A stretch of DNA of 64,000 bases, from positions 1-64,000 of IMG/VR virus record IMGVR_UViG_3300027752_000013; one strand, written 5' to 3'. The notes below the pieces were generated by a model. The model saw only the letters and a program-made list of their open reading frames with translations. It did not search any database and had not been told where the DNA came from. Numbering within the stretch: the first letter of the stretch is position 1; every line of letters starts with the position of its first letter. This DNA is from a virus. Positions 1,897 through 48,400 of this stretch are shown here, piece after piece. Position numbers and translations under genes: made by a program.

Positions 1897-2313
1897 CTAA
1901 GCTGGAATAATAATTTTAGATGGTTCAGTCTTCTCTAGATCAACAAAGAACTCTTCAACACTAAAAGTGTCAGCATTTATAGCAAACATGTGTATAAAGG
2001 TTTCTATGTCAGCTTTATCAGTAAGATAAAACTCAGAAAATGTATCTACTAATCTTCTTTCTTCTTTGTGTGTCTTACCTGTCTGTGGATTTGGATTTTT
2101 CAACCTTTGTGGTTGACCATCATCATCCAATTTAGGGACCATATGATAAGATTGTTTCATCACTTTACTGATGACTGCTAATATGCCTGACGCAGGGTCA
2201 AACATGGCTTCTGTGTAAGGTGAGTCTAAGCTCACTGGAATTAATGTAAATGATTTAGTATTTCTAAAAGTAGAATTTACTAACATCATATTTTTTCCTA
2301 TTTGGTTTGCCAT
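1897..2313 (-). CDS. Hypothetical protein of the replication block (138 aa)
   Basis: I do not recognise this protein. It has 138 residues, no signal peptide, no membrane segment and no obvious catalytic motif. A Lys/Gln/Asn-rich middle (about 62-85) links two more regular halves, and the C-terminal half is acidic. A TATCTTTG box ends 20 nt before its ATG, and a hairpin terminator follows the stop, so it may be expressed as its own short transcript although it sits inside the replication gene array. That separate control suggests it is needed in larger amounts than the polymerase, for example as a DNA-binding or processivity accessory. This last point is inference. Confidence 0.75.
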   Translation of the reverse strand: MANQIGKNMMLVNSTFRNTKSFTLIPVSLDSPYTEAMFDPASGILAVISKVMKQSYHMVPKLDDDGQPQRLKNPNPQTGKTHKEERRLVDTFSEFYLTDKADIETFIHMFAINADTFSVEEFFVDLEKTEPSKIIIPA

Positions 2314-2320
2314 AATTAAT

Positions 2321-2899
2321 TTATTTATTTGTCAAAGATATGGAACTATTTTTTAATAATTGATCAATAACATGATTATTATCAACCAATGTTTCTTTTT
2401 CAAGGTCAGGTGGTGTACATACTTCATATACATCTTCTATAGATTCTATACTTACACCTAGGGACTTTGCATATTCTTCATGTACACCATCAGGTGTCAA
2501 AAATCCTTGCACATAGTCTCCTATTTTTTCTTGACTTCCAAAGAAATCTACTATACTAATTTTACTATCTAAACTATATTGAGAGTATTTGCCTTCAACA
2601 AATCTCTTTATATCAGATTTAAATTTAGAAAAATCATATACATACAACTGTGTATTTTCATTTAACTCAATTGTCTTTTCAAATAATGGATTATTATGTA
2701 AGTTCTGTGATGCAAACTGCATAAAGACCGGAGTCTTTTTAGTTTTATATTTACAGAAAAATTTATAATCATCTATGGAATAGACATTGTCCCACGCAAT
2801 ATACGTTTGTATAGGTACGTGGGTTATGCCTTTCCTTATTTGTAGTAAAGGATAAAGAAATACTTTGCTCTTTTGAAAATATTCTAAATATACACCCAT
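2321..2899 (-). CDS. Hypothetical protein (192 aa)
   Basis: I do not recognise this protein. The 192 residues begin with hydrophobic and aromatic segments (MGVYLEYF) and end in a Ser/Asn-rich tail. No catalytic motif or membrane helix is evident. The start is an ATG one base away from the stop of the upstream nuclease gene, so translation is probably coupled to it. A TAnnTTTG-type promoter for the next gene lies inside its 3' end. Its position between a PD-(D/E)XK nuclease and the polymerase suggests a role in DNA metabolism, but only by association. Confidence 0.75.
   Translation of the reverse strand: MGVYLEYFQKSKVFLYPLLQIRKGITHVPIQTYIAWDNVYSIDDYKFFCKYKTKKTPVFMQFASQNLHNNPLFEKTIELNENTQLYVYDFSKFKSDIKRFVEGKYSQYSLDSKISIVDFFGSQEKIGDYVQGFLTPDGVHEEYAKSLGVSIESIEDVYEVCTPPDLEKETLVDNNHVIDQLLKNSSISLTNK
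2333..2340 (-). promoter_or_regulatory. TAnnTTTG promoter box
   Basis: The minus strand reads TATCTTTG, matching the Bacteroidota -7 consensus TAnnTTTG. A TTG lies about 24 nt upstream of the box, and the ATG of the 1897-2313 gene is 20 nt downstream. Confidence 0.55.
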
Positions 2900-2900
2900 A

Positions 2901-3890
2901 CTATAATTTAACTTTTTCTATTAACAAATCATAAGGTAATGAATAGTTTCTTTCACTGTAATGATAATCTGCAATCTTTAGAACGCCACCTAAGCCTTCA
3001 GCCCAATTGACCATTGACTTTTCTGATACATCATAAACATATACTTGATTATACTTATCAATGACTATAAACTTAAACGTTATTGTGTAATCATCTCTAT
3101 CATCCCCAAGTGAGTCATATACCATTTTAGAGTATATAGCTGCTTGCAACCAATAGTTATAAAAGTCAACGCTTTCAGAAAAATTATCTACAGTTTTACC
3201 TGATGTTTTGAGGTCACATATTGTAACTGTCTTTGTCTCAGTGTCAATTGTATAATAATCAACATAACCATGTAGACCAAAAGCAAACGTATCCAAATCA
3301 GATTTAAGATACTGTTCTGCATGCGTAGATATTGGATCTAGATCAAAATCAGTTGATTGATTTTTAAATAGAGACATAACTTCTTCATTTGATTTAATTA
3401 CCTCAGCCTTAGCTGTACAATCTAATAAAGTATCTTGGTTAATAACATCTACAGAACTGTTAGATAAAAATTCCCAGTATGGTTCATTATCTAATGTTCT
3501 AACTTTAGCTATTCTAGCCTCATCTGCTTTTAGAGATTGATATAAATTAAACTCTATTAAAGAATCAAGTATTACTTTGTCATCTACATCAGCAAGCTTC
3601 ACAGCATCTGTATATAGTGACATGTTTTTTAGTATCTTTCTAACACTGTCTGATGGTGCTTTACCGGGTACTACGTTAAACTTTTCATTTAAGTTTTCAG
3701 GTTCAAATACTAAACAATGCACAAGTTTACCTTCTACTAAATGCTTGTCAGTTCTGATCTCACGATCTTGTAAAATATAGTCCTTATAAAATAAGGATGG
3801 TGAAAATAATAATTTGTTAAGAGAAGAATAGCTAAATGCAAAATTTTTATTTGCATAAAACTGCTCTTCCCTTTCCATGTTTCTAGTCAT
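2901..3890 (-). CDS. PD-(D/E)XK exonuclease, RecE/Cas4-like
   Basis: Likely DNA exonuclease of the PD-(D/E)XK superfamily, in the style of phage exonuclease VIII/RecE C-terminal domains. The N-terminal YSSLNKLLFSPSLFYKDYI is the usual first helix of this fold. EGKLVHCLVFEP gives the GxxxH motif I. HGYVDYYTID followed by ICDLKTSG gives the D and D-x-K catalytic pair (about residues 205-228). WLQAAIYSKMV matches the QxxxY helix. At 329 residues it has a normal length for a stand-alone nuclease domain. The ATG overlaps the end of the upstream gene by 8 nt. With the Sak4-like ATPase and SSB-like protein it could form the phage recombination system. A second, different PD-(D/E)XK protein lies at 27993-28808. 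Confidence 0.8.
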   Translation of the reverse strand: MTRNMEREEQFYANKNFAFSYSSLNKLLFSPSLFYKDYILQDREIRTDKHLVEGKLVHCLVFEPENLNEKFNVVPGKAPSDSVRKILKNMSLYTDAVKLADVDDKVILDSLIEFNLYQSLKADEARIAKVRTLDNEPYWEFLSNSSVDVINQDTLLDCTAKAEVIKSNEEVMSLFKNQSTDFDLDPISTHAEQYLKSDLDTFAFGLHGYVDYYTIDTETKTVTICDLKTSGKTVDNFSESVDFYNYWLQAAIYSKMVYDSLGDDRDDYTITFKFIVIDKYNQVYVYDVSEKSMVNWAEGLGGVLKIADYHYSERNYSLPYDLLIEKVKL

Positions 3891-5028
3891 CTGAAATAAT
3901 TTTATTAGTTAATTCTTCATTAATATATAAAGATGCTAAGTCTACCTTAAATACATCTGCATTTGGGCCAACAGTATTACCTAAAAATGTTGTATGAAGC
4001 TTTTCTCTGGTACTATCCACAGCAAATTTAGTTAATTTTCTGTCTTTAGCCAAAGCATTTAGATAATTATTGAAAGAGAAAATGTTTTGAACATTGTGAC
4101 CTCCTTCATATGACTTCATTCTTTTTCTAAAAGCTTTTACATTGACTGTGTTCCAGTTTGTAGTAGCTTTTAGCCAATCATAATGCCAATAGTAAATACC
4201 TGATACAACATCAAAAGACTTTTCAATATTACAATTAGCAAGCATTTCTAAAGCAAGAGACCTGTTGTCTATATCACTACTTTGAACCATCTTTTCTGTA
4301 TCATTGTATTTATCATTACTAATTACAGCAAGATCTTCATCTATTATAGAACATATATCCGTATCTGCAATAAGATCAACGTTAGAGTTTACTATACTAT
4401 CATATGCAGCATAGTTCTCTTTTGGTAATATCCAATCATGGCCATTGTCTTCTTTTTTATTAGCTTGGGCTATTTGTTCTATAAACTCATACATTTTTTG
4501 TGTAGCAGCATCATTGTTACCCCAGTCTTTATGATATTGAAAATTAACTCTATATGTAGTATCTGTTTGAGACATGAAATCTCTTAACTCAGCTAATGCA
4601 AAATCAGATAATAAGTCTGAATTTTTAAGTTCTGCCAAAATACCATACATCTCTACATATGAAATAGATTTTCCCCATTCCCTATTAACTAGCTTATCAA
4701 AAAACTTCATAGAGACAATACCTATGTCAGCTTTATTTACATCTCTAATAACTTTACAGTTAAATTTTTCTTTCAAAAGATCTACCTTTTGTCTAGGTAA
4801 ATCCAATCTTGGATACCTATAGATTTTTTTATCTTGTAAGTTAACAGAATTTACAAGGCCTGGTACGCCAAGCTTATGCATATCTTCTGCCCTAACTTCC
4901 CATGAATTACTACTATAGATATGCATGCCATCCATGAAGTTCCATTTAAATGCATCTCCTGTTAGTCTTCCATTACTGTCTATATTAGCAGTTTTACAAT
5001 TGATTTCTAATTTTACTCTTTTTTTCAT
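3883..5028 (-). CDS. Unknown protein, paralogue of the next gene upstream (381 aa)
   Basis: I know of no function for it. Residues about 65-105 (KKIYRYPRLDL, then KVDLLKEKF and a V-x-DV-x-KADI segment) align with the same region of the 346-aa neighbour (KKAFILPKCNV, then LKAALKEHG and ELADLIIG). A helical region near residue 260 (DNRSLALEML) matches DDKALALKIV in the neighbour. The two are therefore probably tandem duplicates. The DxxxADI-type segment after a strand and helix resembles a small Rossmann-like or BRCT-like unit, but this is only a guess. There is no signal peptide or membrane helix. It overlaps its upstream neighbour by 4 nt and the nuclease by 8 nt, so it belongs to the replication operon. 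Confidence 0.8.
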   Translation of the reverse strand: MKKRVKLEINCKTANIDSNGRLTGDAFKWNFMDGMHIYSSNSWEVRAEDMHKLGVPGLVNSVNLQDKKIYRYPRLDLPRQKVDLLKEKFNCKVIRDVNKADIGIVSMKFFDKLVNREWGKSISYVEMYGILAELKNSDLLSDFALAELRDFMSQTDTTYRVNFQYHKDWGNNDAATQKMYEFIEQIAQANKKEDNGHDWILPKENYAAYDSIVNSNVDLIADTDICSIIDEDLAVISNDKYNDTEKMVQSSDIDNRSLALEMLANCNIEKSFDVVSGIYYWHYDWLKATTNWNTVNVKAFRKRMKSYEGGHNVQNIFSFNNYLNALAKDRKLTKFAVDSTREKLHTTFLGNTVGPNADVFKVDLASLYINEELTNKIISDD

Positions 5029-6065
5029 TTCTTTAAATATTTTTGATATTCTTTTTTAACAGCTACTTTAAATGTATAAAGATCTCTGTTGTGAATGCTT
5101 ATCTCTCTTCTTACTATAGGCTCAAGATATCTAAATGATACTGTATCAAGTTTATCTTCACTCTCTAACCATAGTATCATATCCTGTGCACTCTTTCTTT
5201 CAAATTTTAAAAAACCAGACGTGTCAAGCCAATACTTAAGATCTTTATCTCTATTATCTGCATATGTAATATTACTACAGTCTTGAGCAAATTGCCATAA
5301 TAGATGATAATTCTTTGTATAGTCTATTGTAGGTACAATTTTAAGAGCTAAAGCTTTGTCATCAGCGTATGTAGCAAGCTGTACTTTAAGATCACTAAGA
5401 AGTTGTTCATCAAGAATCATCTTGGATGCAGAAGCATGAAGTACTGTCTCAGGATCAATAACACTTACATCTGTGGTATCAATTATATGAGCTAAATTAA
5501 CAGCCATACCAGTTAACATCCACTCATCATAAAGACTATTTTCAATATCTAAATCATAATACCTTACACTTTCTGTAAGCTTAGGAGTTAATATAACTTC
5601 TAGGCCAGAGTTGTATATTGCTATTTCTCCAGAATATGTTGCAGAAGATCTACCCTTTGTAGTTTCATAATTCCATATCTTGTTCATCATTACAGTAGAA
5701 GGAATATTCTCAGCGTTTTCTAAACGGTGAGTTGATATATCTTCATGTCCTATAATTAAATCTGCAAGTTCATAGTCATTTGTTACAGTTATACCATGCT
5801 CTTTAAGAGCAGCTTTTAATCTATCTTGAGACACATTACACTTAGGTAATATAAAAGCTTTCTTTTTGGTTCTAAAAGTTTGGTCATCCTCTGTGGGTAC
5901 CGTTAGTATAGTATTTATTTTCTCATAAGTTGTTTGATCTTGAGTACATAATACTTTATTAACCTCCCCTGAACCAGAAAGGACACCATAAATAGTGTCC
6001 TGTTCTAGCCCAAAGTAAGTTAAAGCATCAGTATCAAAATCTTGATATACTGATTTATTTGCCAT
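5025..6065 (-). CDS. Unknown protein, tandem paralogue (346 aa)
   Basis: This is the second member of a tandem pair with the 381-aa protein downstream. Shared features are a strand-helix-strand block near residues 87-125 ending in ELADLIIGHEDIS, and a C-terminal helical half starting near DDKALALKIV. The N-terminus is acidic and Thr-rich and specific to this copy, and the C-terminus ends in a basic Lys/Tyr-rich helix. No catalytic motif is visible. It starts one base after the stop of the MoxR-type ATPase gene and overlaps the 381-aa gene by 4 nt. The order ATPase, paralogue 1, paralogue 2 suggests they could be substrates or adaptors of the AAA+/VWA machine. That is inference from position only. 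Confidence 0.8.
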   Translation of the reverse strand: MANKSVYQDFDTDALTYFGLEQDTIYGVLSGSGEVNKVLCTQDQTTYEKINTILTVPTEDDQTFRTKKKAFILPKCNVSQDRLKAALKEHGITVTNDYELADLIIGHEDISTHRLENAENIPSTVMMNKIWNYETTKGRSSATYSGEIAIYNSGLEVILTPKLTESVRYYDLDIENSLYDEWMLTGMAVNLAHIIDTTDVSVIDPETVLHASASKMILDEQLLSDLKVQLATYADDKALALKIVPTIDYTKNYHLLWQFAQDCSNITYADNRDKDLKYWLDTSGFLKFERKSAQDMILWLESEDKLDTVSFRYLEPIVRREISIHNRDLYTFKVAVKKEYQKYLKK

Positions 6066-6066
6066 T

Positions 6067-7335
6067 TTATTTCATTGTCATTTGGACAATCTCAGGGATC
6101 ATCATCAATTTGTTAAACTTCTTTTTGTTACCATTAAATATTGTACGTACAACCAAGTACTTAAGATCATTAGTAAAATAATCTAGAGTACATAAAGCCT
6201 TAAGTCTATCTGTAACTTTCTGACTAACTGCATTATCTTTAGAAAATACAACAGCATAGTTACCAAGTCTTGTTGCTAATGTTGCAGCAATATCAGCACG
6301 GTAAGTATCATCTTTACCAATACAACTTCTAAGCTCACCTAAGATGTATGATTCATTATCATGAGTCAGCAAATCTTTTGGTGTTACTAGCTTATCTAGT
6401 TTGTTATTAATAAATGTAGTAAACATAGACGCAAAATCATCTCCAACAGAACCTTCACCAATCATTTGGATTAGTGATAAGTTATCTTCAAACTTCTCAA
6501 AACTAGAGATAGAGTTAAAGAATGTTGTAATTGATCTTGCATTAGTTTCTTGTGTTACTAATTCTGGGTGAAGTAAGAGGAAGTTAATACATCTACTATC
6601 AATTCCTGCACCCTCTGCCCACTGGGCCCATACGTTAACATCAAACTTAAGATTAGCAGTTACATATCTAGTCTTCTGTGCACTATCAACACTGTTAACC
6701 ATATAGTCACCGTTATCTGGATTTGCTGTTAAAATTATATGCCAATCCTTTGGTAAGGTCCATGAAATATATGTTTGTCTATCAATCAATTCCATCACAG
6801 CTTGAATAAATCTTGTGTCAGCTCTATTCCAGTCATCTAATAATAAGATACCACCTTCTTTAGCATCAGCAATCCATTCAGGTGCACAATAAGACATTCT
6901 GTTCTTACCGGTCATCTTAAATCCTTGCTTAAGATATTCTTGTACTGCAAGTTCATCAACCCATTGACCAACTTTCTTTGTTACTGGTGCCATTTTAGCT
7001 AAATCAGAAGATGCAGCCGCTCTTTGAGCAGCAGTATAACTGATATCATCTAATTTCTTTGCCGGTATAATTTTTTCCTTATACATCTGAAATTGACGTA
7101 CTGGGAAACCAACTAAGTCACCTAACTCTTCTATCTGAGCTAAGTTAAGCTTGACAAACTTTAGGTTATTGTCTTGTGCAAGCTCTACTATGGTAGAAGT
7201 CTTACCAATACCTGATTCACCTACAACTTCTACTGATACAGGACTTTTACCACCCTCTTGTAGAAATCTATTGTTTGTTATTATGTGATTTACAAATCCT
7301 TTTAACTCTGTTACATTTAAATTTACTTGTGCCAT
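6067..7335 (-). CDS. MoxR/dynein-type AAA+ ATPase
   Basis: AAA+ ATPase of the MoxR/AAA_5 type, a ring-forming remodelling motor. Walker A is GESGIGKTS (about residues 39-47). Walker B is ILLLDDWNRAD (about 162-172), with the Asn-Arg-Ala-Asp continuation seen in MoxR proteins. Sensor 1 is ILTANPDNGDY, and an Arg-containing segment follows (SAQKTRY). At 422 residues it is longer than a minimal MoxR domain, leaving a helical C-terminal region. It is followed in the same operon, 6 nt before it on the map, by a metallopeptidase/VWA protein, the usual genetic partner of MoxR ATPases. By analogy the pair would assemble or dismantle protein complexes or insert metal ions. Its phage role is unknown. 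Confidence 0.85.
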   Translation of the reverse strand: MAQVNLNVTELKGFVNHIITNNRFLQEGGKSPVSVEVVGESGIGKTSTIVELAQDNNLKFVKLNLAQIEELGDLVGFPVRQFQMYKEKIIPAKKLDDISYTAAQRAAASSDLAKMAPVTKKVGQWVDELAVQEYLKQGFKMTGKNRMSYCAPEWIADAKEGGILLLDDWNRADTRFIQAVMELIDRQTYISWTLPKDWHIILTANPDNGDYMVNSVDSAQKTRYVTANLKFDVNVWAQWAEGAGIDSRCINFLLLHPELVTQETNARSITTFFNSISSFEKFEDNLSLIQMIGEGSVGDDFASMFTTFINNKLDKLVTPKDLLTHDNESYILGELRSCIGKDDTYRADIAATLATRLGNYAVVFSKDNAVSQKVTDRLKALCTLDYFTNDLKYLVVRTIFNGNKKKFNKLMMIPEIVQMTMK

Positions 7336-7341
7336 TTTCTA

Positions 7342-8505
7342 TTAATTTAATTTTATTACTTGTCCTGGTAACTCATTATTCATATCAGAAATACTGCTTA
7401 ATACCCATAAGGTATTCTTAGGACAGTTTTCTGGAGAATATGCTTCACCATCTGTTAGATATACTAGAGCTGTATAAACTCCTTTCTTTTCATTAAAATG
7501 GTCAATTACTGGTTGAAAACTAGTTCCACCACGACCGTGTATTTCCCAATCTTTTCTAGGTTTAAATTCTTGTACGCTTACAAGTTGTGTATCACATTGC
7601 GCTACTGTAATTTTATGACCTGTCTTATGCATATGTGTAAGCTCACTAAAAAATTCTTTTAGCTCTTCATTATTTACAGATCCACTTGTGTCAACACCAA
7701 CTAGTATGTGATTCTTGAATTTAATCTTAAGTCCTGGATTAGCTGCATAACGCTTATTGTATTTACGTCTCAGCTTTTTAGTATACACTATACTAGAGTT
7801 ACCTACAAATCTTCTTAAATAACCTTTCCAATCAAATTTAGCTGGTTCAATATGCATTAATCTATGAATCAAATCAGAAAGCTCACCAGGTATGGTACCT
7901 TGTTTCTTTTCTGTTTGTTCAGCTGATTCTTTTAATTGATGCTCAATTTGCTTTTGCAATAGTTTTTTATCAGCTTCAGGTAACTCATCAAACTCTTCCC
8001 ATGTACTATGACAATGTGGGCTATTACCATCCATATTGTCCATCAAACTATCTAATGATGGGCAAGACCCATCTTCTTGTGCTTGTTCTAAAAGCTCATA
8101 GTACTTTTTAGTACCTGCTCTACTTGGAAGATTTAGTTCAGGAAAACTTGATAATAATAAACCACCTGTAGGTAGTTTACTTTCCAGTATGTACTGGTTG
8201 ATCTCTAAATCAGCTGCTATATTAAATAGCTTGTGATCAGAATATAGATCTCTTAATAATAAATGGCCAAATGCAATATGCAATAGCTCATGTTTTATTA
8301 ATCCAAATCTGTGATCTTCACTTAGTTCATTAAAGAACTGTGGGTTTATTGTCAATTGCATACCAATACCTTTTTTACTTACTCCTGCAGTAGGAATACG
8401 TTCACTGTATTCTTTATTGATACCAATTAAAAAGAGCCCGTAAAAGGGCTCTGTAAATATTAAACTTTTGGTTGATCTAGCAACCTGGTCTTGTATATTT
8501 ATCAT
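7342..8505 (-). CDS. Metallopeptidase-like / VWA domain protein, MoxR partner
   Basis: Two-domain protein resembling DUF2201: an N-terminal putative metallopeptidase domain and a C-terminal von Willebrand A-like domain. The first has LIKHELLHIAFGHLLL (about residues 67-82), an HExxH zinc motif followed by a further His, and EINQYI downstream. The second has VGVDTSGSV, a complete MIDAS DxSxS metal site (about residue 270), and YLTDGEAYS near the end for the distal MIDAS Asp. Such proteins work with MoxR AAA+ ATPases, and its partner is the next gene. The start overlaps the upstream small gene by 4 nt (ATGA), so the genes are translationally coupled. It is not secreted. Protease activity is predicted only from the motif; many family members are thought to be inactive. 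Confidence 0.85.
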   Translation of the reverse strand: MINIQDQVARSTKSLIFTEPFYGLFLIGINKEYSERIPTAGVSKKGIGMQLTINPQFFNELSEDHRFGLIKHELLHIAFGHLLLRDLYSDHKLFNIAADLEINQYILESKLPTGGLLLSSFPELNLPSRAGTKKYYELLEQAQEDGSCPSLDSLMDNMDGNSPHCHSTWEEFDELPEADKKLLQKQIEHQLKESAEQTEKKQGTIPGELSDLIHRLMHIEPAKFDWKGYLRRFVGNSSIVYTKKLRRKYNKRYAANPGLKIKFKNHILVGVDTSGSVNNEELKEFFSELTHMHKTGHKITVAQCDTQLVSVQEFKPRKDWEIHGRGGTSFQPVIDHFNEKKGVYTALVYLTDGEAYSPENCPKNTLWVLSSISDMNNELPGQVIKLN

Positions 8506-8804
8506 GTTTTCATAATTTGATCTAATATTTGTTTATAAATAGAATCCATTTTAAAGATGTCTATATAGTAGTATAAAGCTTGTTTACCAACAATTGGTTT
8601 ATCAATAAATTGAACCGCATCAGCAAACTTCTTTCTATGCTTAAATACTAATGCTTTATGCATCAATAAATCTGCAGTGTCATCTTTATAGTTATTTTTA
8701 TAAATTTCCCATGCTAGTTCCTGGTCATCAGGAAGGCCTTGAAACATTTCTTTTAACTTAAAGAATTCTTCTAATGTAATTACTTTGTGACTAACCTGAT
8801 CCAT
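8502..8804 (-). CDS. Hypothetical small helical protein (100 aa)
   Basis: I do not recognise it. The 100 residues are predicted by eye to be almost entirely helical (ITLEEFFKLKEMFQGL at the start and KMDSIYKQILDQIMK at the end), with no cysteine motif, signal or membrane segment. It overlaps the RusA-like gene by 25 nt at its start and the VWA gene by 4 nt at its end, so it is co-expressed with both. It could be a small adaptor for the MoxR/VWA pair that follows. Confidence 0.7.
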   Translation of the reverse strand: MDQVSHKVITLEEFFKLKEMFQGLPDDQELAWEIYKNNYKDDTADLLMHKALVFKHRKKFADAVQFIDKPIVGKQALYYYIDIFKMDSIYKQILDQIMKT

Positions 8805-9166
8805 ACACCTGGGTTTTCTTTATCATATGTGTACTGCTCAAATGCAGGAATTATAAATTCAGCATTGTCATCTTCAATCCAACCATATTTAACCATATCA
8901 TCCTGAACTGTTTGTGCAGGATTTAAGTAGTCAAATTTATGGCGGCTGCCTCTAACAAATTCAAAGGATATTTTTACTGGGAGTTCATGGTTTTCTAATT
9001 CTTTTTTAAACTCTTTAGTATATTCAGCATAAATATCTTTTGTTGCTTTTCTGTAAGTCATTACAGCTTTGCTTGCTATAAAGTATTTACCTGTCCAACG
9101 TCTACCATTCTTACTAGAAGGAACATTTCCGGGTATCCACCATTGTTTAATTAAGTTTTCATTCAT
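8780..9166 (-). CDS. RusA-like Holliday junction resolvase
   Basis: Endonuclease of the RusA family, which cuts Holliday junctions and other branched DNA. It opens with WWIPGNVPSSKNGRRW, the typical RusA N-terminal strand and Asn/Lys motif. It has a basic stretch (SRHKFDYLNPAQTVQDDMVKYG, positions about 83-105) carrying Asp residues in the family arrangement D-x-x-N-x-x-x-x-x-x-D. It ends with the DD pair in WIEDDNAEF. At 128 residues it matches RusA length. It would process branched replication or recombination intermediates before packaging. It overlaps both neighbours (25 nt and 8 nt), which places it in the replication operon. Confidence 0.75.
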   Translation of the reverse strand: MNENLIKQWWIPGNVPSSKNGRRWTGKYFIASKAVMTYRKATKDIYAEYTKEFKKELENHELPVKISFEFVRGSRHKFDYLNPAQTVQDDMVKYGWIEDDNAEFIIPAFEQYTYDKENPGVWIRLVTK

Positions 9167-10145
9167 TTTCTTTATTTAAGGTTTCTTTTAATAAAGGTTT
9201 TAGCATTTGATGTACTTTATCAAAACCATGTGATTTCATGGCATCTGATACGTCTTTGCATATAGTTGGTACAAATCCATAAATATTATATGTTTTTGCA
9301 TACATATCTACAGCATGTTTACCTGCTTCATCATTATCAAAAAGAGTTATTATTTTTTTGTACTTCTTCTTTAGGTGCTCTATTATATGAGGTTTAATCA
9401 TAGTGTTCTCTGAGTCAGGACTAATAACTTCTATGTTATAACCCATGCTCTTCAAGCACATAGCATCCTTAAGTGAGGAACAAATAACTAAATAAGGCTG
9501 ATCAAATTTAAGTTGATCTTTACCTTGCAAATATGACTTGGCTTTATAAAATTTGTACTTCTTACTAAAAGGTTGGTACATCTTATAAACTTCATCATTT
9601 TTATCAAAGTATCCATAACACCACTTACTACCAATAGTAAGTTTGTTTAATTCTTCTGACCCTTCTTTAATTAAATTATAATAATCAATAGGCTTAACGT
9701 TATACTCATCCAGCATTGTTTTACCAATTCTAAATGATAACCAAAACTTTCTATCTTCTGTGGTCCAACCTCTTTCTTTTATGAAATCAATTTTCCACTT
9801 AGACTGTGCTTTAAACTTTGGTTGTACATATTCTGATGACCTAACATATTTATTATAGTCACTTACCATCCTTGTCATGGCTCCGTGGTATTCAAGATTA
9901 AATACAAGTTTAATTAGATCTACTTTATTACCACTTTTTCCTGTTGAAAAGTCTTTGAACTTATACTGCATAATAGATTTATCTACATATATGCAAAAGC
10001 TAGGTGTTCTTTCATTAGGATTAAATATAGATTTAATCTTAATATCTTGACCAGTAAGCTGTTCAGGAAGATCTAAGTAATATTGAAATACCCAAGTGCT
10101 TGGTACATCTTGTCCTTCTCCTACAATGTTTTTAGTGTTAAACAT
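9159..10145 (-). CDS. DNA primase, toprim domain
   Basis: DnaG-like primase for lagging-strand priming. The N-terminal part contains PNERTPSFCIYV and KFKDFSTGKSGNKVDLI, the strands and loop of the primase N-terminal/CHC2-like domain, but no zinc-binding cysteine set. The toprim domain has LVICSSLKDAMCL (about residue 214) and TLFDNDEAGKHA (about 266), the second being the DxDxAG metal motif. The usual Glu of toprim motif 1 is Ser here. I place the start at the ATG at 10145 (328 aa). The frame extends to an ATG at 10181, but that codon lies inside a terminator-like hairpin and would add an unrelated hydrophobic 12-residue leader. A TATCTTTG box ends only 6 nt before the chosen ATG. Confidence 0.85.
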   Translation of the reverse strand: MFNTKNIVGEGQDVPSTWVFQYYLDLPEQLTGQDIKIKSIFNPNERTPSFCIYVDKSIMQYKFKDFSTGKSGNKVDLIKLVFNLEYHGAMTRMVSDYNKYVRSSEYVQPKFKAQSKWKIDFIKERGWTTEDRKFWLSFRIGKTMLDEYNVKPIDYYNLIKEGSEELNKLTIGSKWCYGYFDKNDEVYKMYQPFSKKYKFYKAKSYLQGKDQLKFDQPYLVICSSLKDAMCLKSMGYNIEVISPDSENTMIKPHIIEHLKKKYKKIITLFDNDEAGKHAVDMYAKTYNIYGFVPTICKDVSDAMKSHGFDKVHQMLKPLLKETLNKENE

Positions 10146-10150
10146 AAAAT

Positions 10151-10158
10151 CAAAGATA
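10151..10158 (-). promoter_or_regulatory. TAnnTTTG box directly before the primase ATG
   Basis: The minus strand reads TATCTTTG just downstream of the hairpin at 10171-10193. The ATG is 6 nt after the box, about where transcription would start, so a transcript from here would have almost no leader. Confidence 0.45.
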
Positions 10159-10170
10159 TTAAAAAGAAAT

Positions 10171-10193
10171 GGGCCCAGCAATATACTGAGCCC
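10171..10193 (-). terminator. GC-rich terminator after the SSB-like gene
   Basis: On the minus strand GGGCTCAG and CTGGGCCC form an 8-bp stem (one G-T pair) with a 7-nt loop, followed by a T-rich stretch. It separates the SSB-like gene from the primase and probably limits read-through from an abundant transcript. Confidence 0.7.
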
Positions 10194-18717: not shown

Positions 18718-19299
18718 TTATAGGTCAAAAGTTTCAGCTTCTTCTTCAAGAACTTCATCTTCTGTTTCTACTTCATCAACTACTTCTTCATCTACTATCT
18801 CATCTTCTACTTGTTTGAGACCAAACGCTTCTGCAGTTGTTGCATTTTTAACTTTAGATTTTTTTACTAAGTTAAAAGCTGTTTCATTTGCTGCACGGAT
18901 TGCATCACCATTATTGTGATCTAATAGAACATCCTCTCTTGTTTGATCAAGGGTATACTCTGTTTTCCTATAAATAGGTTGTCCGTCTTGACAGCATATG
19001 ATACCGGTATTACCAGCATATTTTAAATCTCTATCAGGGTCAGATGAATTAAATGGTTCAAATGATTCAACTACAACAATTTTACCTGGTATTGTTTTAC
19101 CTAATTGTTTAGCGTACTCTGTTAATACATCAGTGTTACCTAATATAAGAGTTGATAGATTTCTTGGCTTTAACCAGCCACCTTTTCCAATTGTGGTACT
19201 TTTGTACCCTAATGTAATGTATCCATACTCTGGATTGTTTTTGCTTAAGCGTACAACATTACCCATGTCATCAGCTAGTACTTCTACTTGATTTTGCAT
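18718..19299 (-). CDS. Acidic-tail DNA-binding-like protein, copy 1 (193 aa)
   Basis: Function not recognised. The core, residues about 10-145, is beta-rich and shares the pattern GKIVVxESxEPFN, DxKYAGxTG and PIYRxT with the protein at 23526-24008, so the two are paralogues. The C-terminal 45 residues are almost all Glu, Asp and Val and end in AETFDL, the kind of acidic tip found on phage SSBs and other DNA-metabolism hubs. It is followed by a strong terminator, suggesting high expression. An SSB or other abundant replication factor is my best guess, but there is no catalytic or OB-fold signature I can name. Confidence 0.75.
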   Translation of the reverse strand: MQNQVEVLADDMGNVVRLSKNNPEYGYITLGYKSTTIGKGGWLKPRNLSTLILGNTDVLTEYAKQLGKTIPGKIVVVESFEPFNSSDPDRDLKYAGNTGIICCQDGQPIYRKTEYTLDQTREDVLLDHNNGDAIRAANETAFNLVKKSKVKNATTAEAFGLKQVEDEIVDEEVVDEVETEDEVLEEEAETFDL

Positions 19300-23525: not shown

Positions 23526-24008
23526 CTAGAATGGAGACGCTTCAGCTTCTACAGGTTCAGCTTTAAGAGCTTGTAAACTCTCTACAGCTTGACCCTTAGA
23601 GTTAGCTTCACGTATCTGAGCACCATTATCATGCTTAAGTAATTCACTTACAGCATTGACATCAGCCGTAAAGAATGTAGTTCTATAGATTGGCAAGCCC
23701 TTTATAGAGCAAGCTACACCTGTATCACCAGCATACTTAATATCCACAGCAGGGTTATTAGTATTAAACGGTTCAAGTGATTCTTTTACCACAATCTTAC
23801 CAGTCATTGGGAAAGATGCTTCCATTGCTTTAATGGTAGGCATTTCTCCTTGAATGATAGTACTTAATGTTAGGTCTTTAGCCCAGCCATTTACTACAGA
23901 AATTCCTTTTTGTTCTGCTACAATGTAGCCGTATAAAGGGTTCTTAGAAGTTCTTACTGTTTCTCCTGTCTTAGACAGTCTAATTGTTACTTGATTTAAT
24001 TTTACCAT
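23526..24008 (-). CDS. Acidic-tail DNA-binding-like protein, copy 2 (160 aa)
   Basis: Paralogue of the 193-aa protein at 18718-19299. Shared landmarks are GYIVAEQKG/GYITLGYKS, GKIVVKESLEPFN, DIKYAGDTG and LPIYRTT. The C-terminal tail is shorter but again acidic (EAEASPF). I take the ATG at 24008. The longer frame to 24050 adds 14 residues with no similarity to the paralogue. It is the first minus-strand gene beyond the divergent control region, hence probably early. The GGGAGCAGA-hairpin elements lie on both sides of it. Function unknown; an SSB-like or other abundant replication protein is likely. Confidence 0.75.
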   Translation of the reverse strand: MVKLNQVTIRLSKTGETVRTSKNPLYGYIVAEQKGISVVNGWAKDLTLSTIIQGEMPTIKAMEASFPMTGKIVVKESLEPFNTNNPAVDIKYAGDTGVACSIKGLPIYRTTFFTADVNAVSELLKHDNGAQIREANSKGQAVESLQALKAEPVEAEASPF

Positions 24009-24095
24009 GATATTGATATAATAGTTTTGATTAAGAATGCCGTAATACATTCTCTGAAAGATTTATAGTTGCATAATTACGTATGCATTATTTAA

Positions 24096-29727: not shown

Positions 29728-29938
29728 AACTGCCTCTGGAATTATATTACCTGAGATGGCACGTAAAAAAACTTTTCAAGGTGAAGTAGTAGGACGGGGA
29801 GATGAGGTAAAAGAAATTCAAATAGGAGATGTGGTTCAATATGCTGATCATGCAATGCCAACACCAATGCAACATCATAATGAAGAACATTTATTATTGC
29901 AAGTGGGAGACGTATATGCTATCATAAGATATGAGTAG
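29660..29938 (+). CDS. GroES-like co-chaperonin (Cpn10)
   Basis: Co-chaperonin that caps the host GroEL ring. The Cpn10 signature is seen in PVGMKLLIKEIKAETKT (strand 1), SGIILPEMARKKTFQGEVV (mobile loop and strand), and IGDVVQY with the end DVYAIIRY. I put the start at ATG 29660 (92 residues, the normal Cpn10 size). The frame reaches an ATG at 29567, but the extra 31 residues do not match Cpn10 and overlap the 48-aa gene. It overlaps TerL by 8 nt. Phages such as T4 use their own GroES to fold their capsid protein; the same need is likely here. Confidence 0.82.
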   Translation: MKNQVVVPVGMKLLIKEIKAETKTASGIILPEMARKKTFQGEVVGRGDEVKEIQIGDVVQYADHAMPTPMQHHNEEHLLLQVGDVYAIIRYE

Positions 29939-32120
29939 AGTTATACCTACATATGAGAAAGGTTTATGGACAACAACTGAATTTGATTCGGATATAGAAT
30001 TTAGAGAATATCTTGAATCTATATTTAAGGAACCGGGTAAGTATGACTTTACAAAAATTGCTTTAGAATTTAATCAAGAAGCAAGAACATTTAATAAGGA
30101 TGGTTTTTATATCAATGCTCCTTTTAGATCTAAAGACTTTACAGCTTATTGGGAAGATCAAAAGAATAAATGTAGAGTTGGAGTAATATACAAAGATGAA
30201 GGGAAAGCCTGGTACCTAACTAGGGATTACTATATGTGGTTAAACTTTCTACCTATCTTTGATAAAGAAGAGAAACATTATGGTTTTGCTAAAGTAAGAG
30301 ATGCACAATATCATATGGCATTGTATGAAGTAATATCAGAATTAAATAATCAGCATGTTGCTATACTAAAAAAACGTCAGATAGCATCTTCTTATTTTCA
30401 TATGGGTAAAATCATAAATCAATATTGGTTTGAAGAAGGATCTATATGTAAAATTGGTGCTTCATTAAAAGATTATATTAATGATAAAGGATCTTGGAAG
30501 TTTTTAGAAGAATACAAAACATTTCTTAATGAACATACTGCATGGTATAGACCTAGTAATCCAGAAAAAGTATTATTATGGCAACAGCAAATAGAAGTCA
30601 AAGTAAACAACAGAAAAACATCAAGAGGTCTTAAATCAAAGATACAGGGTGCTTCATTTGAAAAGAATGCTACCACAGGGGTAGGGGGGCCTTGTACATA
30701 TTTCTTTCATGAGGAAGCAGGAATTGCAAAAAACATGATGCAGACTTATGAGTACCTGCGTCCTGCAATGTCTTCAGGTATGATGACAACAGGTCAATTT
30801 ATAGCTGCTGGTTCAGTTGGTGATTTAGAACAATGTGGTCCATTAAAAGATATGATTCTAAATCCAGGTGCAAATGATATATATGCAGTAGAGACCAACC
30901 TAATGGACGCTGATGGTACTATTGGTATGGCAGGGTTGTTTATTCCTGAACAGTGGTCTATGCCACCTTATATTGATGATTATGGTAACTCTCAAGTTGA
31001 AGAAGCTATTGTAGCTATAAATATAGAAAGAGATAGATGGAGAAATGAATTAAGTGGAGAACAATTTCAATTAAGAATATCTCAGAAACCTTTAAATATT
31101 GCTGAAGCATTTGCATATAGAAAAGAATCAGTATTCCCTCAAGGTGTATTATCTAGACAATTAAAAAGAATTGAGGAAAAAGAATATCCTTATGAGTTAA
31201 TTGAACTAGATAGAGATAGCACAGGTATTGTTGCTAAACGTACAAGTAAATTACCTATATCTTCATTTCCAGTAAATAAAAAAGAAGTTGATAAAACAGG
31301 TTCAATTGTTGTATGGGAAAGACCAGTAAAGAGCCCATCTTTTGGAGCATACTACGGTTCTATTGATCCTGTCTCAGAAGGTAAAACAACAACCTCTGAT
31401 TCATTGTGTAGTATATTTATATATAAGAATGCAATTGAAGTAACAAGAACAACTGTCTCAGGTGAAATAGAACAGTTTATAGAAAAAGATAAAATTGTAG
31501 CAGCATGGTGTGGACGTTTTGATGATATAAACAAAACTCATGAAAGGTTAGAAATGATTATTGAATGGTACAATGCCTGGACAATAGTTGAAAATAATAT
31601 ATCATTATTTATTCAACATATGATTGCCAGAAAAAAACAAAGATACCTTGTACCTAAACAACAAATACTTTTTCTAAAAGATTTAGGATCAAATAGAACT
31701 GTATATCAAGAGTATGGTTGGAAAAATACAGGTACATTATTTAAAAGTCATTTGATATCTTATGCAATAGAATTTTTAAGAGAGGTTATTGATGAAGATC
31801 TTGATGAAAATGGTAATGTAATGAAACAAACATTAGGTGCAGAAAGAATTCCTGATCCTATGTTGCTGAAAGAAATGTTAGCTTATTATCCTGGATTAAA
31901 CGTAGATAGACTTGTCACATTTGGTGCGTTAATAGCATTTGTAAAAATACAACAATCAAATAGAGGTTACACAAAGAGACGTGAATCAGAAGGTAATTCT
32001 TTGGATAGTTCAGAAAAAATGAGTAAATTAAAGTATAGTGGTCCTTTTAGAAATATAGGGCGTAACAAGGCATTTGGAAGTTCTAAAAATAGAAGGTCCG
32101 GATTCAAGAATATAAAATAG
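29931..32120 (+). CDS. Terminase large subunit (TerL)
   Basis: DNA-packaging motor: an N-terminal ATPase and a C-terminal nuclease (729 aa). VAILKKRQIASSYFHMGKI (near residue 145) is in the Walker A place but lacks a GKS/T core, as in some TerL families. The Walker B strand CTYFFHEEAG is near residue 260. The nuclease domain opens with YYGSIDPVSEG (Asp about residue 478), and further acids follow at GRFDD and IVENN. The C-terminus is basic (RNKAFGSSKNRRSGFKNIK, quoted in part), as expected for DNA contact. Its order, just before the portal and capsid genes, agrees with the crAss-like layout. Confidence 0.88.
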   Translation: MSRVIPTYEKGLWTTTEFDSDIEFREYLESIFKEPGKYDFTKIALEFNQEARTFNKDGFYINAPFRSKDFTAYWEDQKNKCRVGVIYKDEGKAWYLTRDYYMWLNFLPIFDKEEKHYGFAKVRDAQYHMALYEVISELNNQHVAILKKRQIASSYFHMGKIINQYWFEEGSICKIGASLKDYINDKGSWKFLEEYKTFLNEHTAWYRPSNPEKVLLWQQQIEVKVNNRKTSRGLKSKIQGASFEKNATTGVGGPCTYFFHEEAGIAKNMMQTYEYLRPAMSSGMMTTGQFIAAGSVGDLEQCGPLKDMILNPGANDIYAVETNLMDADGTIGMAGLFIPEQWSMPPYIDDYGNSQVEEAIVAINIERDRWRNELSGEQFQLRISQKPLNIAEAFAYRKESVFPQGVLSRQLKRIEEKEYPYELIELDRDSTGIVAKRTSKLPISSFPVNKKEVDKTGSIVVWERPVKSPSFGAYYGSIDPVSEGKTTTSDSLCSIFIYKNAIEVTRTTVSGEIEQFIEKDKIVAAWCGRFDDINKTHERLEMIIEWYNAWTIVENNISLFIQHMIARKKQRYLVPKQQILFLKDLGSNRTVYQEYGWKNTGTLFKSHLISYAIEFLREVIDEDLDENGNVMKQTLGAERIPDPMLLKEMLAYYPGLNVDRLVTFGALIAFVKIQQSNRGYTKRRESEGNSLDSSEKMSKLKYSGPFRNIGRNKAFGSSKNRRSGFKNIK

Positions 32121-36391: not shown

Positions 36392-38011
36392 ATGGCAACT
36401 CCAGTATTAAATAATGGGATTTTCCTACGTGATACAAGCTACAAAGCAAGTTCACATGTTGATTCTTATCACCTAACCCAAATGCTTGGTAACCCTGAGC
36501 CTATGGATATGGGACCAATTGATCTATGGGCTATGACCCAAAAGGTAGAAATGCCTTTGTATCAAATGGCTTCATTCGGTGGAAAGAATACAATCATGGT
36601 GGATAACGCTAGAGGTGAGTACAAGTGGCAAACTCCTATTGCACAAGATCTTCCCTACGTAGTAGCGGATATTGAACCAGGCTCTACTACTAAAGGTGTA
36701 GATGGAACAACATTTAAGATCAAAATTAACAAAAGAACTTTTGGACACGGTGACATTATTACTTATGATAAGTATAATGGACTTGAACTTTACATCACAG
36801 CTGATGATATTATCCCAGCAGGTGACGGTTATGTTTATACTGTTCAATTAGTTAACAACAACAATGCGGCTATCTTGGATAACAAGTATTTAGCTAAAGG
36901 TACAAAGTTCTTCAGAAAAGGTTCTGCAAGAGGTGAGTACGGAGAAAGATTCTCTGACATTGAAACAGGTTCTGGTTTCCGTGAATTCTACAATTTTGTA
37001 GGAGGAGCAGAAGCACACGTACACTATTCAATTTCTTCAAGAGCAGACTTAATGATCAAAGGCGGATTAAACGCTGATGGTACTGTGCCTGTTACTGAAA
37101 TCTGGAGAAACTTTGACAATGATCCAAACAATCCATCAGTACCAAGTATTGAAGGACTTGTAGCAACTATGGGTAAAGCTGGTGCTAGAGATGCATTTGA
37201 AAATGGAACTCTAACACGTACTTTCATTACAAATATGGAAGCAGCACATTTATCTAAAATTGCAACGGATATTGAGACTTACCTAATGTGGGGTAAAGGT
37301 GGTAGAATTAAACAAGATGGACCGGATGATATTAGATTATCTGTAGGTTTATGGTCACAGTTAGATAACTCTTTCAAGAGAGTATATAACAAGTCATCAT
37401 TTACTCTTGACATGTTTAAGTCTGAACTTTACAACTTCTACCAAGGTAAAGTTGAATTTAAAGGGCCAGACCCACAAAGATCACTTGTTGTACAAACAGG
37501 TATTGGAGGTATGCAACTAATCAACAAAGCAATTGCTGATGAGGTGTATGGTTCAGGTCTAGTTCAAAATGCATCAGATATTGGAGCTGTTAAAGGTTCA
37601 GGTATGGATTTAGATTATGGTTTTGCTTACACAAGCTTTACTATTCCTTTCTTAGCTAACGTTAAGTTTGTATTGAATCCAGCATTTGATAACTTAAACA
37701 CAAATGATATTGAGAATCCATTAATTGATGGAAGACCTCTAAGTTCATTTAGCTTTATTATCTTTGATGTGACGGACGAAGGAAATGACAACATTCACTT
37801 GTTGAAACTTTCTTGGGATAATCAACTCAAGTGGTTCTACCAAAATGGTACTATGGACTACATGGGAAGAACTCAAGGGTTTGCTTCTACTGGTCAATTC
37901 AATGGATACAGAGTTTATATGACTCAGACTATGCCAGCTATTTGGGTGAAGGATCCAACTAAAGTTCTTAAAATTGTAATGAGAAACCCTGTAACAGGAG
38001 GATCATTCTAG
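36392..38011 (+). CDS. Major capsid protein
   Basis: Builds the icosahedral shell. The 539 residues begin MATPVLNNGIFLRDTSYKAS and then MLGNPEPMDMGPIDLWAMT, the N-terminal arm style of crAss-like capsid proteins. They continue with HK97-type mixed strands (YKWQTPIAQDLPYVVADIEPG; GFREFYNFVGGAEAHVH). The gene lies after portal and scaffold, and a strong terminator follows directly, which fits a very highly expressed protein. The bulk of the protein has no Cys. Identification rests on position, length and similarity by eye. Confidence 0.85.
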   Translation: MATPVLNNGIFLRDTSYKASSHVDSYHLTQMLGNPEPMDMGPIDLWAMTQKVEMPLYQMASFGGKNTIMVDNARGEYKWQTPIAQDLPYVVADIEPGSTTKGVDGTTFKIKINKRTFGHGDIITYDKYNGLELYITADDIIPAGDGYVYTVQLVNNNNAAILDNKYLAKGTKFFRKGSARGEYGERFSDIETGSGFREFYNFVGGAEAHVHYSISSRADLMIKGGLNADGTVPVTEIWRNFDNDPNNPSVPSIEGLVATMGKAGARDAFENGTLTRTFITNMEAAHLSKIATDIETYLMWGKGGRIKQDGPDDIRLSVGLWSQLDNSFKRVYNKSSFTLDMFKSELYNFYQGKVEFKGPDPQRSLVVQTGIGGMQLINKAIADEVYGSGLVQNASDIGAVKGSGMDLDYGFAYTSFTIPFLANVKFVLNPAFDNLNTNDIENPLIDGRPLSSFSFIIFDVTDEGNDNIHLLKLSWDNQLKWFYQNGTMDYMGRTQGFASTGQFNGYRVYMTQTMPAIWVKDPTKVLKIVMRNPVTGGSF

Positions 38012-45464: not shown

Positions 45465-48400
45465 ATGGCAAAAATAATTAGTAATCTACAAGTTGAAGGG
45501 AATGTACAAATGGATACAATGGCTAATGCTACTGTAGACACAAATCACTTTGTAGTAAGTGATGGGGGTATATTAAAATACCGTACTGGGGCTCAACTAA
45601 GATCTGATATTGGAGCTGGAACAGGAAGTGGTTCTGTTACATCTATTACAGTAACTGGATCAAATGGTTTATCTGGAACAGGTACAATTACTTCTTCTGG
45701 AACAATTACTTTATCAAATTCTGATAGAGGTTCTTCTCAAGCAATTTATAAAAATGTAGTAGCTGATTCCGGTGGAACAGCAACTGCTAATAGTAATAAT
45801 GATACCCTTACTATAACAGGTGGTAAAAATGTCAGCACGGTTAGAAGTGGTGATACTATTACAATTATTGCTACAGATACAGATACAAATAATTATGTTA
45901 GTTCCGTAAGTTTTAATACTTCTAATGGAATATTAACATTAAACAGATCAGGGCTTAGTGCCCTTACTGTAGATTTAGATGGAAAATATGTTGATCTAAC
46001 ATCTAACCAAACTGTAGCAGGTGACAAGATATTTACAGGCACCACTACACTTAAAAATGCATATCAAGCTTATCATCAAGTAGCTACAGGTGATTATTAT
46101 TATGATTCATATGATGGTTCTAAAAACTTAAGATGGTTAGTACAAGGAGCTAAGTCTGATATAATTAGATATCAATCCTATAGCAATACAGAGTATTGGA
46201 ATGGTTCATCTTGGGTTTCATGGACTCAAACTACCATGTTTAATAATATATTAGATGGCCAAAAATCTACAAGTTCTGGGGGTTCCATTACAAATACAAC
46301 TAAAAAATTTAGATTTGAAGTTCAATCAAACACTGGATGGCCAACTACTGCTATATTATGGGTTGAAACTTCTTGGACTGGAGCAGCATGGCCCGGTCTT
46401 AATGTTGAAATAGAAGAGTGGGATACTGCTACTAGTTCTTGGTCTACAAACCCTGGAGCCAATGCAGCATTTACGTCTGCTAACGGTGTTACCAATTGGG
46501 GTTTAATGGGGCATGTTGTTACTTCATTACACACAGGTGATAGTCTTACTAGGATCACATTAGATTTTGGGGCAATGCCTACAAGTGGTGGTTATCAAAC
46601 AGTACCATTGTTAAATGTAATGATTACATCTAACTTTTCAGGACTTGATAATACTGTATTTCCTTTTACCGTAGACTATAATAAAAACCTTACAACAACA
46701 GGTAATTTTTATGGAGCTGGAGGTAACTCAACAGAGTGGAATTCTGCATATGACAACACAATTAATAAACTTGCCGTAACAGGAACAACAACTAAAACAT
46801 TAACTGCCACACAAAATGATGGTGGTACACTAACTACATCTTGGGCAGATGTTAATACAGATACTAATAACTATGTTAGTGCTGTAGCATTTAATACAAC
46901 TAATGGTATTTTAACTTTATCACGTAGCGGCCTTACAGCCCTTACAGTTGATTTGGACGGTAGATATTTAACATCTGCATCTAATTACTATTTGGATGGT
47001 ATAAGTAAATCAGGTAATACACTTACATTTAGTGTTAGCGGTACCACAAATCAAACATATACATTTGGAGGCAATGCCTTTAATAGTACTACAATTTATG
47101 CTGAGCCAGGTATATATAGTGGTGGTGGTACACCAACTTTAGCTTCAGGTGTAACTGGAGCAGAAGTAAGATCTTTAATTGGTGCTGGTACTTCCAGTTT
47201 AGTGATTGGTACAACTGCATCTACAGCAATGGCAGGTAATACAACAACTATTACTTCTCAACAGGCAACAGATATTGCAAATAACAATAAGAAAGTAACT
47301 GATTCTGGAGTACCAGCAGTAACATCTAATGGTAGCACACCAGCATTAAACACTGGAATAAGTGCTGCAGAAATGAGAAGTCTTATTGGAGCAGGAACAG
47401 GATCATCTAATTTAGTATTAGGAACTACATCAACAACAGCAAAGAGAGGTGATACTACAACTATAACTTCTACTCAAGCATCAAACATTCTTACTAATAA
47501 TGGTAAAGTAAGTGACACAGGTACACCTGCAGTCTTATCAAATGGGACTACTCCTTCACTAAATTCTGGAATATCAGCTAGTGAAATGAGAGTTCTTATA
47601 GGAGCTGGTACATCTAGTCTTACAATAGGCACAACCTCATCAACTGCAAAAGCAGGTAACACAACAACAATAACAGGTGCTCAAGCAACTGCTATTACAA
47701 ACAACTCTGCTAAAGTATCTGATACAGGCACACCAGCAATTCTATCTAATGGAGCAACACCTACGTTAAACTCAGGTATATCTGCTGCTGAAGTAAGAAG
47801 CCTTATTGGAGCAGGTACTTCAAGTAGTGCAGGAGTTACAAGTGTAAGCGGTACTGCAAATAGAATTTCTGTTACGGCAGGTGCTACACCAACGGTAAAT
47901 GCAATTACAGGTACAGTAACTTCTTCTTCTGCTAATTTAGCAACAGGTGCTCAGATACAAACAGCTATTAATTCAGCTGTAACAGGAGTATTAAAATATA
48001 AAGGAACTTGGGACGCTGCTGGAAATATTCCAACACTAATAAGTGCAAAGGGAACTGTTGGTGAATACTATATTGTTTCTAAAGCTGGATCAACAAATTT
48101 AGATGGAATTACAGATTGGGCAGTTGGTGACTGGGCTGTATTCTCTGATCAAGCTACAGACGCTTGGCAGAAAATAGATAACACTCAAGTAGGTAACGTA
48201 ACAGGTAGTGGTTCATCAGGAAGAGTTGCATATTGGAATGGATCAACTAATGTAACAAGTGATGCAGGATTAACATTTAATGGCAGTACAAATGCTTTAA
48301 CTGTTAGTGGTGCAGTAACCTGGAGTGGTGGTGGATCAACAGAATCTAATGCTGCATATGATAATAGTATTACAGGATTTTCTGATAGTGGATCTTCAAC

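Follow-up and report, generated by a model that had tools for sequence, protein, structure and literature searches.

AAA+ ATPases of the MoxR type are co-encoded with a VWA partner bearing a MIDAS in NorQ/NorD, RavA/ViaA and CbbQ/CbbO, the clients of which are metalloenzymes or other host enzymes. To our knowledge, the partners NorD, ViaA and CbbO are all devoid of an HExxH domain. In the case of NorQ/NorD, the VWA domain plugs the AAA+ ring by means of a finger, hydrolysis twists the partner, and it is the client, and not the ATPase, that is bound by the MIDAS (PMC9976466, PMC13036017).

Pairs of this kind are also encoded by phages. The N4 counterparts of the pair studied here are gp24 and gp25 (PMC2784036), which have been listed, without a function, among the core genes of the N4-like phages (PMC4193335). 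More recently, Iyer and colleagues (2021) reported a MoxR ATPase together with a metallopeptidase-VWA protein in jumbo phages of group 2.2, for which they proposed that the pair serves virion assembly (PMC7824862). A preliminary description of the present locus regarded the exact phage role of the pair as undescribed, a view that these three papers do not support in that form. The pair itself is a known phage module, while its setting in a cassette and its BRCT-like partner family are new. In the main texts searched, no published account of a knock-out of the pair was found.

The viral genome and its replication block

The stretch of DNA analysed (the window, 64,000 nt) belongs to a virus record of 66.8 kb. 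Its terminase (29931-32120, plus strand) is closest to those of gut Crassvirales, with ~25% identity, whereas its capsid protein (36392-38011, plus strand) is closest to that of Leptolyngbya phage Lbo-JY46 (29%), followed by those of csAssE-Sib and Cellulophaga phi4:1. This discrepancy points to a deep-branching lineage, and the virus is Crassvirales-like, from a large environmental crAss-like lineage. DUF2201_N was not found when Lbo-JY46, csAssE-Sib and phi4:1 were searched. The minus strand encodes the replication genes, up to ~24 kb, and the plus strand encodes the virion genes. Around position 24000, between these two halves, the coding strand switches sharply and both the GC and the AT skew change sign. 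The replication half also encodes a pair of paralogous proteins of unassigned function (18718-19299 and 23526-24050, both on the minus strand), which have in common the motif ...RLSKxNPxYGYI...GWxKxxxLSTxIxG...

The MoxR/VWA pair is located at 6067-7335 and 7342-8505 of the minus strand, exactly where it had first been placed, in a block that comprises the following genes:

9159..10181, minus strand: DnaG-type primase (phrog_12622 1.8e-25; Toprim_2 1.4e-5)
8780..9166, minus strand: RusA-like Holliday junction resolvase (phrog_1682 3.6e-20)
8502..8804, minus strand: small ORF of 100 aa, upstream border of the cassette, found in most related loci
7342..8505, minus strand: VWA co-chaperone with a putative N-terminal metallopeptidase and a C-terminal VWA domain, 387 aa (DUF2201, phrog_1314)
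6067..7335, minus strand: MoxR-like AAA+ ATPase, 422 aa (phrog_1297, AAA_5, motifs)
5025..6065, minus strand: putative BRCT-like family protein 1 (paralogue 1), 346 aa (Pfam BRCT, Foldseek)
3883..5028, minus strand: putative BRCT-like family protein 2 (paralogue 2), 381 aa (AF2, fold hits, paralogy)
2901..3890, minus strand: PD-(D/E)XK exonuclease, downstream border of the cassette (PDDEXK_1 8.6e-6; phrog_412 exonuclease VIII 1e-16)
2321..2899, minus strand: g192, an ORF of 192 aa with no assigned function, kept 3' of the exonuclease, phi14:2 included
1897..2313, minus strand: g138, an ORF of 138 aa with no assigned function, the conserved last gene of the syntenic block

From the VWA gene to the exonuclease gene, neighbours are separated by gaps of 6 and 1 bp or overlap by 4 and 8 bp, and this near-contact leads to the expectation of a single operon. 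The placement of the pair in a replication operon, already noted in the preliminary description, agrees with this tight packing and with the primase, RusA and exonuclease genes on its flanks; the wider neighbourhood includes a RecA/Sak4-like ATPase and DnaB. The small ORF at 8502..8804 has the position and size of small ORFs in phi14:2, crAss001 and cr1_1, of which it may be a homologue.

The metallopeptidase-VWA protein

The protein encoded at 7342-8505 matches Pfam DUF2201_N (1.1e-17, 65.0 bits, cut-off 23.2) and DUF2201 (2.2e-17, 63.8 bits, cut-off 26.4), so both DUF2201 (COG3864) domains are found in a single protein, each above its curated cut-off; in PHROG, it matches phrog_1314 with an E-value of 1.7e-64. 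Its N-terminal part holds the putative metallopeptidase motif HELLHIAFGH, and its MIDAS (DTSGS...T...D) is complete, being formed by D272, S274, S276, T328 and D352. The HExxHxxxxH motif, the DxSxS motif and the Thr and Asp of the MIDAS are present in 128/128 distinct VWA proteins of the crAss-like lineage, which bears out the HExxH and the perfect MIDAS first read from the window copy. This conservation, together with that of the Walker A motif of the ATPase (see below), indicates that these motifs are not due to chance. Furthermore, an alignment with the homologues of N4, PBS1, RaK2, Alteromonas AD45, a Moorella phage and cyanophage S-TIM66 shows as invariant the HExxHxxxxH motif, a further motif (N.A.D..N) and every residue of the MIDAS. 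According to these motifs, the N-terminal domain is a putative zincin metallopeptidase with a predicted third metal ligand.

The DUF2201 metallopeptidase-VWA family carries the label 'HNH endonuclease' in PHROGs (phrog_1314) and in many GenBank/RefSeq phage records, such as those of N4 gp25, RaK2 and PBS1. As no HNH match was found for this family, and Pfam returns DUF2201, the label is likely a propagated mis-annotation.

The MoxR-like ATPase

The protein encoded at 6067-7335 matches phrog_1297 'ATPase' (4.3e-35), which supports its homology to this family of phage ATPases. Its match to Pfam AAA_5 (3.5e-4, 21 bits) falls just under the 22-bit cut-off, and for this reason the protein is named MoxR-like and not a confirmed member of a MoxR subfamily. 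The identities given to the two proteins in the preliminary description, MoxR and VWA-metallopeptidase, are supported. Compared with PDB sequences, the profile of the ATPase family matches the AAA+ protein Midasin (3e-6). Midasin (Rea1/Mdn1) suggests a further analogy, which is the use of a MIDAS to take factors off a large assembly; however, it is a single giant protein that lacks a peptidase and functions in ribosome biogenesis.

The ATPase exhibits a Walker A motif (GESGIGKT), a Walker B motif (LLLDDWN), sensor-1 N205 and a candidate Arg finger, R223. Walker A is present in 100/100 distinct MoxR proteins of the crAss-like lineage, and the alignment with six unrelated phages shows that Walker A, the sensor-1 Asn and the Arg-finger candidate are all kept. 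The second acidic residue of Walker B is Asp in the window, but Glu in N4, PBS1, S-TIM66 and AD45. Asp-Asp instead of Asp-Glu is found in nearly all members of the lineage, and so represents a fixed conservative change, which may slow hydrolysis or weaken the ATPase activity. The claim of a complete Walker A/B therefore holds for Walker A, and for Walker B only if this conservative change is accepted. Some relatives encode an additional small ORF (~130 aa) between the VWA and MoxR genes, where the gap is then ~405-430 bp; this ORF, MGRYYxGDIxGKF..., with CSFTAEL at its C-terminus, is found for instance at L022:5666-6067 and L069:5000-5386.

By homology of their parts with NorQ/NorD, the phage proteins are predicted to assemble into a comparable ring and co-chaperone, to which a metallopeptidase is added. 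Maturation of metal centres, by which a CobST/NorQD-like system would supply a phage enzyme, for example ribonucleotide reductase, with its metal, is one of the functions considered, and a ribonucleotide reductase is found in 11/12 pair-bearing phages searched, two of these weakly. The reductase is located outside the cassette, however, and N4 holds the pair while yielding no ribonucleotide reductase hit. We also know of no VWA partner of the CobST/NorQD kind with a metallopeptidase domain. Although metal maturation is what the best-understood MoxR/VWA pairs do (PMC13036017), it appears very unlikely here. Ribonucleotide reductase was rejected as a general client, since metal insertion into this enzyme cannot be general when N4 lacks it. 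Family-A DNA polymerase was also rejected as a common client, with matches in only 3/12 pair-bearing phages.

Distribution of the pair in other phages

In tblastn searches, 413 to 440 phage records contained a match to the VWA protein, most of them from N4-like and jumbo phages, and profile searches matched N4 gp25 (1e-16) and gp24 (6e-4). The two genes are adjacent in 6/6 unrelated phages inspected, in an order that varies. N4 gp24/gp25 share with the window pair the adjacency of an AAA+ ATPase and a DUF2201 metallopeptidase-VWA protein, the same invariant residues and a position among middle or replication-phase genes, and are core genes of the Schitoviridae. In contrast, the ATPase gene comes first in N4, the identity to the window proteins is ~25% (VWA) and ~19% (ATPase), Walker B reads DE and not DD, and a BRCT-like partner is missing. 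The pair of the group 2.2 jumbo phages has the same two-protein architecture, including the metallopeptidase fusion, but it has been placed with virion-assembly functions (PMC7824862), while the window pair is part of a replication cassette with BRCT-like proteins.

The published proposal for these jumbo phages raises the question of whether the pair acts in virion assembly or maturation, with the MoxR-VWA proteins serving as chaperones for structural proteins that the metallopeptidase processes, in analogy with the Acidianus two-tailed virus. In agreement with this, the pair adjoins virion genes in RaK2 and S-TIM66, in the latter also beside Hsp20, and in roseophage RPP1 mid-genome virion genes are found near the gp24/gp25 homologues (PMC4193335). 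Nevertheless, the transcripts of N4 gp24/gp25 are middle and not late, and the pair is missing from the virion proteins listed for N4-like roseophages (PMC4193335). In addition, the pair of the window is embedded in the replication block, whereas the virion genes are encoded by the other strand, and for this locus we consider a role in virion assembly unlikely.

A PADLOC search of the pair gave no defence-system match beyond weak AAA hits. In the gut Crassvirales phage cr125_1 (L248:5570-7670), a different AAA_5 ATPase (CbbQ/NorQ-like, AAA_5 1.9e-12) is encoded between a Sak4-like gene and the primase. The annotation places next to it another gene labelled CbbQ/NorQ, the reading frame of which looks VWA-like with a degenerate MIDAS. 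These genes are perhaps an analogous pair of gut crAss phages.

A four-gene cassette gained or lost as a unit

Two scans yielded 157 loci and, apart from contig ends and small ORFs that escaped detection, all of them follow one fixed gene order (primase, RusA, small ORF, VWA, MoxR, paralogue 1, paralogue 2, exonuclease, g192 and g138); some of these loci share contigs and are not independent. Wherever a locus has both a VWA and a MoxR gene (202/202), the two are neighbours, no more than 0.93 kb from each other. These counts show that related crAss-like phages keep the pair together and next to the genes at 3883-6065, a point that the preliminary description had singled out for checking. When the scan was seeded with proteins of distant phages, far more divergent relatives were recovered with the order kept, and in these divergent loci the slot after MoxR is often occupied by a single BRCT-like gene. 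The reverse search, which used three single-copy BRCT-like proteins alone, retrieved 32 new loci, and VWA-MoxR is located immediately upstream in 32/32.

The cultured phages phi14:2 and crAss001 lack the cassette, and their RusA, small ORF and exonuclease genes are directly adjacent. Profiles confirmed the phi14:2 homologues of RusA, the exonuclease and g192, and DUF2201_N was not found in the whole genomes of either phage. As both keep the flanks without the four genes, the cassette has been gained or lost as a unit within an otherwise conserved replication block.

Such variable presence within Crassvirales, as seen for accessory functions, together with the wide and patchy distribution of the pair among unrelated phages and the fast divergence of the second BRCT-like protein, would fit a role in host takeover or counter-defence, in which a host complex is taken apart or cleaved by the machine, guided to host DNA-repair or defence complexes by the BRCT-like proteins. 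Accessory takeover genes, however, do not usually show such strict order and conservation within a lineage despite large divergence, nor are they usually core genes, as the pair is in N4-like phages, or placed among core replication genes. This explanation is regarded as improbable.

The downstream paralogues and their probable BRCT-like domain

With the enlarged sequence set, hhalign relates paralogue 1 to paralogue 2 at an E-value of 2.5e-6 over 274 columns. With shallow profiles the signal is marginal (score 25.4, a value reached by 4/300 column shuffles) and insufficient for the case, which was decided by single-gene intermediates found in deeper lineages: the proteins encoded by the lone genes of L203, L175 and L202 match the profiles of both paralogues, at 1e-18 to 1e-27 and at 1e-7 to 1e-12. 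Judged by these profile matches, the two copies of the window are true tandem paralogues, as had been suspected from the window alone. Paralogue 2 diverges fast: in many relatives it is 34-56% identical to its counterpart in the window, compared with 82-88% for the VWA protein. When phage records were searched by tblastn with each paralogue and with the paralogue-2 consensus, no matches were obtained.

The AF2 model of paralogue 2 (pLDDT 85.5) shows, in residues 68-136, the order b-a-b-b-a-b-a, which is that of BRCT domains. That of paralogue 1 (pLDDT 55) is not good enough to be read alone, but the spacing of strands and helices is alike in both, and both match the same three uncharacterised viral proteins of BFVD, from an uncultured phage, CrAss-like virus ctYsL76 and Podoviridae ctz6O13. 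BRCT chains recur among the PDB fold hits of paralogue 2, although weakly (the best has a probability of 0.94 with an E-value of 0.18, and BRCT fold hits overall are at ~0.1-1 or worse). The Foldseek hits of paralogue 1 include BRCT-bearing phage NAD+ DNA ligases and a BRCT protein, and its Pfam BRCT match (0.11, residues 68-115) is sub-threshold. The profile of the family also matches Pfam BRCT_2 (0.035) and BRCT (0.065) below the cut-offs and, among PDB chains, residues 124-194 of SMARCC1 at 8.6e-4, a stretch which we take to be its BRCT region, and the PARP1 BRCT at the same place (0.27). A clamp-loader fold for paralogue 2 was dismissed, as the fold hits have probabilities of ~0.1.

The two paralogues therefore resemble the BRCT domains of PARP1, SMARCC1 and phage NAD+ ligases in predicted strand/helix order and through weak profile matches, but remain below the Pfam cut-offs and hold an extra helical C-terminal domain with no known relative. 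The presence of a putative BRCT-like domain in both is moderately supported. The BRCT-like family was not detected in N4, PBS1, RaK2, AD45, the Moorella phage, S-TIM66 or the gut Crassvirales tested, and this partner family and the cassette are undescribed as far as the libraries and papers searched indicate.

Proposed mechanism

It is tentatively proposed, as the best of the readings considered, that the cassette encodes a remodelling machine of the NorQD/Midasin type, with a BRCT-like protein as its dedicated client or adaptor, acting on phage DNA replication or recombination complexes. Genes 3883-8505 would constitute one functional cassette, in which the AAA+ ATPase forms a ring, the VWA protein docks on it as NorD does on NorQ, and ATP hydrolysis moves the VWA protein. 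The MIDAS would grip an acidic residue of the client, and the metallopeptidase domain might cut or hold the part released. The client or targeting adaptor would be the BRCT-like protein, encoded by one gene in deep lineages and by two tandem paralogues here, which would dock on the replication or recombination complexes, so that the machine remodels or clears complexes on phage DNA. We infer the ring architecture, the identity of the client, the site of action and the proteolysis, while the identities of the genes, their invariant active-site residues, strict adjacency and paralogy, and the presence or absence of the cassette were observed directly.

As the MIDAS is invariant, the client is expected to expose an acidic residue. 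The BRCT-like proteins are the best candidates for client or adaptor because no other proteins of this lineage invariably accompany the pair and are missing where it is missing. The likely BRCT-like fold and the neighbourhood, with its primase, RusA, exonuclease, RecA/Sak4-like ATPase and DnaB, indicate replication or recombination complexes. Adjacency of genes does not amount to binding of their products, and it is the location, the fixed partnership and the fold that favour the role suggested for the BRCT-like proteins. That the pair may act on a replisome or on the two paralogues had been suggested in the preliminary description. Against this model, the pair lies among virion genes in RaK2 and S-TIM66, the BRCT matches are sub-threshold, and the Asp of Walker B may weaken the ATPase. 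Moreover, as the pair exists elsewhere with no detectable BRCT-like protein, the latter is not needed for its general function, and the client may differ between phage lineages.

A more specific version, a Midasin-like machine of the replication fork in which BRCT-like adaptors aim the AAA+/VWA-peptidase ring at phage DNA intermediates, where it would strip or cleave protein complexes, is considered doubtful.

If this version is true, the virus would encode a disassembly machine for replication or recombination complexes, and a BRCT-like module, typical elsewhere of DNA repair, would be one of its parts. Should the partner be a docking protein of the BRCT type, phages would have a dedicated AAA+ remodeller of DNA complexes. 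With the pair tied to one particular partner family, this lineage offers a definite candidate client that can be put to the test; N4 offers none.

Other features of the virion region

A second VWA-like segment (VIDYTGSMS, TDALPGG) is found on the plus strand within a large virion-region protein (52288-54516), in a context unrelated to that of the DUF2201 protein. The same strand encodes a large tail-type protein (45465-50876) that holds an S74-like intramolecular chaperone motif at its end (SDERLKTNIETIPNALEKV...).
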